Positions 43,971 through 46,281 of a stretch of 49,288 nucleotides of DNA are shown here, piece by piece (positions within the stretch are counted from its first letter, which is position 1; the number at the start of each line of letters is the position of its first letter). This stretch comes from an uncultured SAR86 cluster bacterium (GTDB lineage Bacteria > Pseudomonadota > Gammaproteobacteria > Magnimaribacterales > D2472). Position numbers and translations under genes: made by a program. The stretch spans positions 83,453 to 132,740 of the forward strand of contig CACOZT010000001.1 in the NCBI GenBank assembly GCA_902631785.1, written 5' to 3'. The notes under the pieces are model-generated. The model did no database searches, was not told the DNA's origin, and was given only the letters and a program-made list of their open reading frames with translations.

Positions 43971-44804
43971 TTAATTAAAATTAGACTTTATAAAAGATGA
44001 AATAGTTTGTCTGATAATTTCGTCTGCTTCGTCAGAAAAATTATAATGCCCGCCTCCATCTATTGTTAAAAGCTGATGTTGTTCACCTAACCCCTCGTCC
44101 AAAAGAACTGCCTGATTATATGGAACCCATCTATCTTTTGTTCCATGAATTGTTAAAACATTAAGTTCAATTTCATCCAACAAATAAATTGGTGAAAGAT
44201 TCTCAGAAATTTCATCTAAGTTTGAATCTGATCCGATCCATCCTTTTACATAATTTGAAGCTTTAAAAAACTTTGTTTTATCTAAAAATTTTGAAGTCTC
44301 TTTAATTTCTGTTATGCCGAAAATATTAATTATAGCTTTCGGTGAAATTTCTTCTGCGCATTCTTTATTTTTGTAATTAGCAGAGAGGCCAACCATTAAT
44401 GCCAAATGTCCTCCTGCACTAGCGCCAGCAACAACAATATCGTCAGTTGATAAATTTTTTAGTGTTGCATCGCTAATAATTTTTTTGTAAGCACAAATCA
44501 CATCTTCAACCGCATTTGGTGCTGTTGCCTCTCCAACCCTATAGCCAATCATATAAATATTAAGTTCTTTATGATTTATAAAATGATTCTGAAATCTTTT
44601 AATCCACCTTTCAGCTCTTTTGTCTCCAAATAGCCAACCACCTCCATGAATCCAAATTAAAACTTTATCGGATGATCCCTTATAAAAATCAATTTTTTGT
44701 TTTTCATCATAGCCATAGGAAATTTCAATAGGTTGAATATCAGGCTGTGCATCTAAATAAAATGAGCCAAAAAGTATAACTAGAAATACGTTTTTCTTTA
44801 ACAA
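43971..44804 (-). CDS. Secreted alpha/beta hydrolase (esterase/lipase-like)
   Basis: A 277-residue protein with a signal peptide (to about residue 20, YLDAQ). The oxyanion hole motif is WIHGGGWLFGD (51-61), the nucleophile is in VVAGASAGGHLALMV (Ser near 129), the acid in IHGTKDRWVPY and the histidine in GGGHYNF. It belongs to the HSL-like carboxylesterase group. The start is TTG at 44804, giving a good signal peptide. It lies 32 bases after the cysteine-rich micro-ORF. Confidence 0.85.
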   Translation of the reverse strand: MLKKNVFLVILFGSFYLDAQPDIQPIEISYGYDEKQKIDFYKGSSDKVLIWIHGGGWLFGDKRAERWIKRFQNHFINHKELNIYMIGYRVGEATAPNAVEDVICAYKKIISDATLKNLSTDDIVVAGASAGGHLALMVGLSANYKNKECAEEISPKAIINIFGITEIKETSKFLDKTKFFKASNYVKGWIGSDSNLDEISENLSPIYLLDEIELNVLTIHGTKDRWVPYNQAVLLDEGLGEQHQLLTIDGGGHYNFSDEADEIIRQTISSFIKSNFN

Positions 44805-44817
44805 AGGTTTTATTAAT

Positions 44818-44836
44818 AATTTAAGTTAGTTAAATT
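44818..44836. repeat. Inverted repeat after the cysteine-rich micro-ORF
   Basis: AATTTAA (44818-44824) and TTAAATT (44830-44836) are exact complements with a five-base loop (GTTAG). On the minus strand the stem begins directly after the micro-ORF stop and lies upstream of the hydrolase gene. It could be an RNA stem affecting the downstream transcript, though it is all A-U. Confidence 0.4.
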
Positions 44837-44902
44837 TTACTTTGAGCAGCAGGAGCACTCGCAACAATCGCAACAATCACACATAAATTCATTATACATC
44901 AT
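44837..44902 (-). CDS. Cysteine-rich micro-ORF (21 residues, 8 Cys)
   Basis: Two adjacent ATG codons (44902 and 44899) open a frame ending TAA at 44837-44839. From the second ATG the peptide is MYNEFMCDCCDCCECSCCSK: eight cysteines among the last 14 residues, with acidic residues between them. It starts eight bases after the stop of the glycosyltransferase gene and could be reached by reinitiation; no ribosome site is obvious. The codons alternate TGT and TGC and the DNA has a nine-base tandem repeat, CGCAACAAT, twice on the plus strand. A thiolate metal-binding peptide is possible. Expression is unproven. Confidence 0.45.
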   Translation of the reverse strand: MMYNEFMCDCCDCCECSCCSK

Positions 44903-44910
44903 TTGATATG

Positions 44911-46281
44911 CTAATTTATGCGCCAGATAGTACCACAAGCATTTTCATTACATTTATCTACTATATTCGTTGAAAGTGTAAAATTATTTTCTTCTACTGA
45001 TAAGTTATTTGGGTTAGGGATTACATCTCTTGTAGTTATTCCTATTACCTTGCAACTATTATTTTGAGTATTGTTGCTCCACCAACTAATTGTATCTTTT
45101 GCAGACAAGACAGGCCTTTGAATGTCTGAATAAAGTTCTTCAGCTGCAAAATATATTATTTCATCAAATTCTTGACGAAATAGAATGTTTGAATCAAAAC
45201 CAGTTTCATTTTCAAAAAATAAAGGCATTCCATCACATTCCGCTTTATGCGAGCTTGCGATTATTCCTTCAAAATTTGTGTATGGGGTTATTGCTCTTGG
45301 GCCATACAAAAGAATAATAAGTACAAATGAAGCAATTTTTAAACTTACAAAATACTTTCTATCAAGATGAATGATTAAAAATAAAGATAAAAACGGGAAA
45401 AACGCTGTGAAATATCTGCCCTGATAGAAAGGGGATGTTATAGCCGAATAAGTAAAAATAATTACTATAGAAAAAATTATAGGGCTTATATCAAATAGAA
45501 TCTTTTTAAACTTGCTTTTTGAGATACGAAAAAGCAAACAAATTCCAGCCATTATTGTTGGAATCATGAAAGCCCCAGTATTTCTTATATGCCTAAAATA
45601 AGAATCAATATGGTAATCACTATTTAAAAGAACGCTCCCAGAAGAAAAGATTAGCACTTGAGAGCAAGCTATAAAAATTACAATTAATACTAAGAGCCTT
45701 TTAAGCATTGAACTGTTTTCAATAAAAAACTTTAACATTACAAAAACAACAAATAATCCCGCTATAGGATTAAAGGCGGATAGCACAATGCCGGATATTA
45801 TGAACAAGTAAAAATAATTGTTCTCGTCTTTTGTCCTTGTTAAAAGATATGAGGTTGAAAAAAGAACTGACCATGAAAAAACAAATCCATAGGTTCTTAT
45901 TTCAAAAAAGAATCTTAAGAAATATTCTGAAGCAAATAAAACAAAGGCAAACAATAATATTCGCTCGAATGAAAGGATCTTTCTTAATAAATAAAATGAA
46001 AAAAATACGACAAATAGTGAGATGAAGTGTATAAAAACTAAATTGTCAAAATTTTCTAATCCAAATAAGTTTATAGAAAGCTTATAGATAAGCGTATGTA
46101 ATAGATAGTTTGGATCAGCCCTTGTTATTGAAATAATTGAATCTATATCTTTCGAAGTAATCCAATATTGGTATATCTCATCATGCCAAAGCGGTAATTG
46201 AAGCTGATAAGCAATAAAGTAAAAAACCGCCCATGAAATCGCTATATAAAGAAATATTTTAAAGGCGTTTGATTGATTCAT
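44911..46281 (-). CDS. GT-C-like multi-span membrane glycosyltransferase
   Basis: A 456-residue protein with ten or more hydrophobic spans and a periplasmic C-terminal domain from about residue 345. The first loop carries the acidic pair in LPLWHDEIYQYW and the DPNYLLHTLIYKL segment, as in ArnT/PMT-type (GT39/83) enzymes that use polyprenyl-phosphate sugars. Substrates are unknown. The C-terminal part has four cysteines (KAECDG, NNSCKV, DKCNENACG). It is divergent from the GNAT gene and is followed by the cysteine-rich micro-ORF. Confidence 0.8.
   Translation of the reverse strand: MNQSNAFKIFLYIAISWAVFYFIAYQLQLPLWHDEIYQYWITSKDIDSIISITRADPNYLLHTLIYKLSINLFGLENFDNLVFIHFISLFVVFFSFYLLRKILSFERILLFAFVLFASEYFLRFFFEIRTYGFVFSWSVLFSTSYLLTRTKDENNYFYLFIISGIVLSAFNPIAGLFVVFVMLKFFIENSSMLKRLLVLIVIFIACSQVLIFSSGSVLLNSDYHIDSYFRHIRNTGAFMIPTIMAGICLLFRISKSKFKKILFDISPIIFSIVIIFTYSAITSPFYQGRYFTAFFPFLSLFLIIHLDRKYFVSLKIASFVLIILLYGPRAITPYTNFEGIIASSHKAECDGMPLFFENETGFDSNILFRQEFDEIIYFAAEELYSDIQRPVLSAKDTISWWSNNTQNNSCKVIGITTRDVIPNPNNLSVEENNFTLSTNIVDKCNENACGTIWRIN

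Follow-up and report, generated by a model that had tools for sequence, protein, structure and literature searches.

The window analysed here, a stretch of 49,288 nucleotides from an uncultured SAR86 cluster bacterium (GenBank assembly GCA_902631785.1, contig CACOZT010000001.1, positions 83,453 to 132,740), carries on its minus strand a micro-ORF (open reading frame) of 15 codons which, as judged by comparison with its relatives, is a real and conserved gene. Eight of the 15 residues of its peptide, MCDCCDCCECSCCSK, are cysteines (53%), arranged as M-C-x-CC-x-CC-x-C-x-CC-x-K, and an export signal is absent. Comparison of homologous loci by sequence demonstrates that the cysteines are kept at the protein level and that the distance to the promoter is nearly fixed, while the neighbourhood is not. 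We hold with moderate confidence that this is a minimal, stand-alone gene with a predicted leaderless mRNA, and that its peptide would act in trans as a thiolate metal binder similar to a very small metallothionein.

Relatives of the gene were sought with a pattern demanding ATG and TGY at codons 2, 4, 5, 7, 8 and 10, so that conservation at these codons is built in; no demand was placed on codons 12 and 13, on the stop or on the promoter. Within the window’s order (SAR86), this six-cysteine pattern matches 72 of the 203 genomes; the carriers belong to 10 of the 22 genera and to three of the four families, and 71 of the 72 have it at a single place; the reversed pattern, used as a control, had no match in the listed genomes of the order. 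Sixty of the 73 places were fetched with long flanks and are the basis of all counts out of 60 given below. The other 13 (in genomes G008, G026, G094, G097, G101, G110, G114, G118, G122, G123, G124, G126 and G141) were read in shorter loci, three of which are L206, L212 and L221, and all of them keep eight cysteines. The one genome with two copies (G194; L136 and L137) is metagenome-derived and the two sequences differ; mis-binning is possible.

The fair test of conservation is provided by codons 12 and 13, which are TGT or TGC in 119 of 120 cases. Throughout the 60 loci, which represent 35 different peptides and 52 different 42-nucleotide genes, every cysteine codon switches between TGT and TGC with its first two positions invariant, one TGA apart, while in the spacer codons all three positions vary, the residues encoded being D, E, N, Q, K, S, T or A. 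The stop falls one to six codons past the last cysteine in 59 of the 60 loci, and His, Phe, Trp and Tyr are all absent from 59 of the 60 peptides. Mean pairwise identity reaches 0.81 in the gene and 0.81 in the −10 box; it is 0.31 in the six-base spacer between them and 0.32, the background level, both upstream (−60 to −21) and at +60 to +100. The single TGA stands for the eighth cysteine codon (codon 13) of L119, in genome G003, and may be a sequencing error, a mutation or a recoding event; L124, with similar surroundings, has TGC there.

The original prediction, made on the window alone, had reported eight cysteines in the last 14 residues of a longer frame, which are present as described, on what proves to be the minus strand. 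A thiolate metal-binding peptide, or else a redox or peptide-modification substrate, had been suggested there; this reading is supported, with metal binding as its presumptive part. The original prediction had also considered such a composition rare by chance. The eight-cysteine pattern with acidic spacers was found 0 times in 100 dinucleotide-preserving shuffles of the window. Related spacers without an open frame or cysteine pattern were named there as evidence to the contrary; the pattern instead recurs in the 72 genomes, and in the 60 fetched loci its cysteine codons are only TGT or TGC, bar the one TGA. A nine-base tandem duplication (GATTGTTGC twice) does exist in the window, and a repeat-born artefact had been proposed from it. 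In relatives, the two copies of the nine bases differ from each other by synonymous changes, and the cysteine pattern is kept. A chance or repeat-born frame is very unlikely because the cysteines are kept at codons 12 and 13, because the identity of the gene so clearly exceeds that of its flanks, and because of the placement of the stop.

The start of the gene has to be corrected, as the frame first described is too long at its N-terminus. From 44902 to 44837, the minus strand reads ATG ATG TAT AAT GAA TTT ATG TGT GAT TGT TGC GAT TGT TGC GAG TGC TCC TGC TGC TCA AAG TAA, and translation of this whole frame gives MMYNEFMCDCCDCCECSCCSK before the TAA stop, that is, the conserved part MCDCCDCCECSCCSK preceded by the extension (M)MYNEF. 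The conserved gene begins at the third ATG (44884). Only 21 of the 60 homologous loci have an in-frame upstream ATG with no intervening stop, and in the window the MMYNEF stretch overlaps the −10 box TATAAT (44896-44891). Since TATAAT ends six bases before the conserved ATG and an upstream ATG is present in only 21 of the 60 loci, we consider MMYNEF to be promoter DNA and not a part of the peptide.

In 43 of the 60 loci, positions −12 to −7 relative to the conserved ATG read exactly TATAMT, and in 56 they read TANANT; the remaining four (L090, L096, L101 and L102) have a similar box offset by one base. For comparison, TATAMT occupies the −12 position in 7 of the 583 other ATG-started ORFs of at least 100 residues in the same loci. 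A more weakly conserved TTRGT reaches to −18, and in 53 of the 60 loci a pyrimidine directly precedes the ATG. A Shine–Dalgarno-like site precedes 3 of the 60 peptide genes versus 152 of the 583 other ORFs. The simplest reading of this arrangement is that transcription begins on the A of AUG, yielding a predicted leaderless mRNA. A wider promoter regulon was considered and rejected: a longer form of the motif, TTRGTTTATAMT-N6-ATG, is absent from the window’s genome, even from the peptide gene, the upstream sequence of which differs, and eight other ORFs with TATAMT six bases 5' of their ATG have no evident common function.

Carriers of the six-cysteine pattern are distributed over the genera (g1, 19/34; g3, 1/1; g5, 2/7; g6, 10/21; g12, 8/10; g14, 14/26; g15, 2/5; g16, 6/7; g17, 6/18; g19, 4/8; none in the other 12), and they comprise 16 of the 40 genomes with a completeness of 90% or more and a contamination of 5% or less. 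A promoter-based search that required only two cysteine codons returned 51 places, 48 of them shared with the places of the six-cysteine pattern, and when all ATG frames of 8–45 residues with at least five cysteines and at least 30% cysteine were collected from the 60 loci, this peptide alone was obtained (none in the reversed-sequence control). When 84,980 species, each represented by a single genome, were scanned with the eight-cysteine pattern, 78 matches were obtained. Seventy of them are SAR86-type genes, in genomes overlapping those of the order-wide set, and all encode peptides of at most 19 residues; TANANT is found at −12 in 65 of these loci and a box one base off in 4, with neither in L221. 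The eight other matches, from unrelated taxa, were rejected as evidence for the gene outside SAR86, being cysteine runs or low-complexity frames, mostly simple TGY repeats. Among 369 genomes drawn from the class, two matches were found, both in the window’s own genus.

What surrounds the gene is far from constant. Among script-called ORFs of at least 70 residues, 29 families are found directly downstream across the 60 loci, and the next downstream ORF lies on the same strand in 56 loci and on the opposite strand in 4. Because its neighbours vary to this extent, the gene behaves as a stand-alone unit. No consistent terminator-like hairpin follows the stop: by the script’s rule, 12 of the 60 loci have none at all and in the rest hairpins differ in place and strength. 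The inverted repeat noticed after the frame in the window is present (44836-44818) and has an all-AT stem. A link of the peptide to the glycosyltransferase and the esterase beside it is not supported, both being changing neighbours. For the esterase, 16 places were found at E < 1e-70 and 15 of them became loci; the peptide is present in the fetched flanks of 5 and missing from those of 10. A looser look at these ten loci, two of which end at a contig edge, revealed no divergent copy of the peptide. The features of the locus are collected in Table 1.

Table 1. Coordinates of the peptide gene and of the features around it in the window.
Feature	Position	Strand	Evidence or remark
Cysteine-peptide gene, 15 codons + TAA, MCDCCDCCECSCCSK	44837..44884	−	Start and Cys pattern kept in 60 SAR86 loci; pattern in 72/203 genomes
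Six-base spacer, −10 box to ATG; sequence variable, length nearly fixed	44885..44890	−	Final base a pyrimidine in 53/60 loci
−10 element TATAAT, six bases 5' of the conserved ATG	44891..44896	−	TATAMT/TANANT counts in 60 loci
Two upstream in-frame ATGs, start of the frame first described; unconserved, judged part of the promoter	44897..44902	−	
AT-only inverted repeat AATTTAA-CTAAC-TTAAATT directly 3' of the stop	44818..44836	−	No T run; unclear as terminator; unconserved
Downstream neighbour, alpha/beta-hydrolase (BD-FAE/Abhydrolase_3), TTG start 32 bases past the peptide stop	43971..44804	−	
Upstream neighbour, named glycosyltransferase in the original prediction	44911..46281	−	Without Pfam match at E 0.001

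We propose that the −10 promoter would drive a leaderless mRNA starting at AUG, the 15 codons of which would be translated into a cysteine peptide without an export signal. This peptide may then work in trans as a thiolate ligand, a “mini-metallothionein”, and may buffer or detoxify one of the soft metals, for instance Zn(II), Cu(I), Cd(II) or Hg(II). Metal binding is suggested by the peptide composition. Action in trans via the thiols is favoured because the cysteine spacing is selected, because His is lacking and aromatic residues almost so, because there is no fixed downstream target, and because similar mini-genes occur in phages. The transcription start, translation, cell location, metal binding and the metal concerned are all predictions made from sequence, and among the uses of the peptide we rank metal binding before a cysteine-sensing leader and the latter before a redox or iron–sulphur (Fe-S) role.

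Metallothioneins are known from animals, fungi and bacteria (the SmtA/BmtA type); the bacterial ones have about 50 residues, and the classical ones lack aromatic residues and His. The SAR86 peptide resembles them in its very high cysteine content, its C-x-C and CC motifs and the practical absence of aromatics, but with 15 residues and 53% cysteine it is far shorter, and its metal binding is presumed from sequence. Phytochelatins, (gamma-Glu-Cys)n-Gly, are made enzymatically from glutathione (PMC11191002). The SAR86 peptide is likewise short, with acidic residues alternating with cysteines, but unlike phytochelatins it would be gene-encoded. No match to the 21-residue frame was found in Pfam, NCBIfam or the PDB sequences up to E 10, a test weakened by the very short query. 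In the open-licence literature, no paper prints any of six core strings or joins SAR86 with metallothionein or with MerC; a search there combining phage, metallothionein, cysteine-rich, marine and small proteins returned nothing, and one for leaderless cysteine-rich small proteins and metal returned nothing related, as judged by title.

The neighbourhood is mixed but provides a hint of metal handling. A MerC-family protein (PF03203; E 4.4e-25 for the representative in Pfam) is the most frequent family within 5 kb of the peptide gene (30 of 60 loci) and adjoins it, on one side or the other, in 11 loci. Also recurrent in this neighbourhood are a PepSY-type protein (16 of 60) and a His/Met-rich protein for which Pfam gives no match (12 of 60); these could be involved in metal handling.

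Several observations weigh against the favoured reading. Other families are nearly as frequent within 5 kb as MerC: an SMR-like transporter is found there in 28 of the 60 loci, a VOC-like protein in 27, a 95-residue protein without an assigned function in 25 and a zinc peptidase in 21, so that the proximity of MerC may represent regional synteny. The SMR-like and VOC-like labels are presumptive, as we read them from the sequences. MerC itself is present in 165 of the 203 genomes of the order, and in the window’s genome it lies on another contig. In view of these competing neighbours and of how widespread MerC is, we treat the MerC neighbourhood as a hint only. The exact pattern is missing from 131 of the 203 genomes (every genome of family f2 and 24 of the 40 high-quality ones among them), which implies either that the gene is dispensable or that relatives there look different. 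In L221 (genome G008, outside the 60), the peptide is present and the −10 box is missing from its normal distance. The gene also prefers GAG and AAG among its codons, a bias for which the function of the peptide does not account by itself.

Some details can be added to these points. Family f2 and genera g8, g9 and g13 lack an exact-pattern copy despite several genomes at least 90% complete, as would result from loss or divergence. In L221, a GAGAGG stretch precedes the ATG and perhaps marks a switch to Shine–Dalgarno-led translation. At codons 9 and 15 of the 60 loci, Glu is encoded by GAG in 41 of 49 cases and Lys by AAG in 34 of 51, versus 31% and 24% in neighbouring genes, and TGC is likewise over-used in the peptide gene.

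Similar mini-genes are present in marine phages. The eight-cysteine pattern matches 24 IMG/VR contigs; one (L084) was dropped as a cysteine run, and the other 23 (L061-L083) carry mini-genes of 13–14 residues, MC[KSTR]CCKCC[NS]C[TND]CC(E), mostly behind a purine-rich Shine–Dalgarno-like stretch (by eye) and with the next gene close behind. A search for variants returned 24 further contigs, 17 of which are chance frames by eye and seven (L231, L239, L241, L244, L245, L246 and L250) mini-gene-like, mostly with acidic spacers, as in MCDCCDCCNCCCK (L245) and MCKCCDCCDCGCDC (L250). One permuted cysteine spacing was matched by three viral contigs, all of them cysteine-run or low-complexity by eye and none mini-gene-like. 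The 30 phage contigs, which are not independent (19 different gene sequences, 14 peptides), share the core C-x-CC-x-CC-x-C in 13–17 residues and differ in context. Some contigs partly match Pelagibacter phage HTVC008M and Methylophilales phage Melnitz, one has a short terminase-like DNA match, and DUF5824 neighbours were recognised in the two tested. No CC-x-CC frame is present in the regions fetched from the cultured phages (13.7 kb of Melnitz-1 and 16.0 kb of HTVC008M), and no similar phage record was found for L245 or L246, the two of the seven that were queried.

The phage mini-genes resemble the SAR86 gene in the MC-x-CC-x-CC-x-C core, in the length of 13–17 residues and in that the motif is the whole gene; they differ from it by the Shine–Dalgarno-like stretch, mostly present as judged by eye, by their position inside phage gene runs and by the frequent Lys in place of the Asp/Glu spacers. 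The common spacing would reflect either descent or convergence, and convergence is possible. It is conceivable, though we give it a low probability, that SAR86 and several marine phages have in common, by descent or convergence, a family of thiolate mini-peptides of 13–17 residues, which would be among the smallest gene-encoded scaffolds for metal clusters, serving as a metal buffer in the bacteria and helping the phages to manage their metal or Fe-S supply during infection. In L065 (3577-4356), the mini-gene is located 8 nucleotides upstream of an IscU-like gene (NifU_N, E 1.3e-37), which is followed by an IscA-like gene (Fe-S_biosyn, E 1.3e-13), and the contig of L061 (also L292) has an IscU relative elsewhere. 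IscU as a regular phage neighbour was rejected, since only 1 of the best 80 phage IscU loci, that of the same L065 phage, has a cysteine-rich mini-ORF in its fetched flanks.

Among the other readings, we regard it as unlikely that the gene is a leaderless polycysteine attenuator, the translation of which senses charged tRNA-Cys and controls the downstream genes. Canestrari (2020) is said to have described polycysteine leaderless small ORFs as attenuators. Such ORFs of mycobacteria are the nearest precedent in form, being leaderless, tiny and cysteine-rich like the SAR86 gene, and cysteine-rich regulatory small ORFs are reported in mycobacteria (PMC9094748). The predicted leaderless start and the same-strand ORF that comes next in 56 of the 60 loci agree with this mechanism, but no conserved same-strand target emerges from the 29 downstream families and the four opposite-strand loci, and 3' of the gene there is neither a consistent hairpin nor identity above background at +60 to +100. 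An attenuator would need cysteine codons, not the fixed C-x-CC-x-CC-x-C-x-CC spacing. Both the changing downstream gene and the fixed spacing set the SAR86 gene apart from the mycobacterial ORFs, and phages have similar mini-genes in varied contexts. A redox or sulphur role, in which the peptide is a thiol buffer, persulphide carrier or Fe-S accessory rather than a metal store, is improbable too and follows the attenuator in our ranking. It would suit eight cysteines with few other functional side chains, the L065 mini-gene upstream of IscU-like and IscA-like genes, and the recurrence near the SAR86 peptide of GloB- and GFA-type proteins, whose names refer to reactions that depend on glutathione; among the best 80 phage IscU loci, however, that same phage alone has a cysteine-rich mini-ORF in the fetched flanks, and no Fe-S assembly gene was recognised among the neighbour representatives read (eight Pfam-scanned).

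Much less probable still is a precursor of a ribosomally synthesised and post-translationally modified peptide (RiPP), that is, the substrate of a modifying enzyme, or a signal peptide. The very short and stereotyped form of the peptide would be in keeping with either, but a conserved maturation gene next to it is lacking, the most frequent family within 5 kb, MerC, reaching no more than 30 of the 60 loci, and no maturation, protease-exporter or receptor gene was recognised among the representatives read. A division into leader and core is also lacking, as the conserved core is nearly the entire peptide. The least credible reading is that the ORF arose by chance or from the repeat, or that a small RNA carries the frame incidentally. 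The tandem duplication and the simple TGY repeats among the non-SAR86 matches invite it, but it is opposed by cysteines kept under synonymous drift, a stop near the last cysteine in all loci but one and a nearly fixed promoter distance. For a small RNA, there is no Rfam match, and the folding is only slightly stabler than that of synonymous redraws (mean z −0.46).

SAR86 is among the abundant bacterial groups of the surface ocean and has small genomes. Genes of 15 codons are below the size which routine gene callers report, and for this reason the gene described here is easily missed. It represents a tiny gene that 10 genera have retained in changing surroundings, and the similar mini-genes of phages point to a design useful enough for viral carriage. 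Should the peptide bind metal, it would be a ribosomally made, metallothionein-like peptide of unusually small size, and trace-metal handling in SAR86 would become testable with a synthetic 15-mer.
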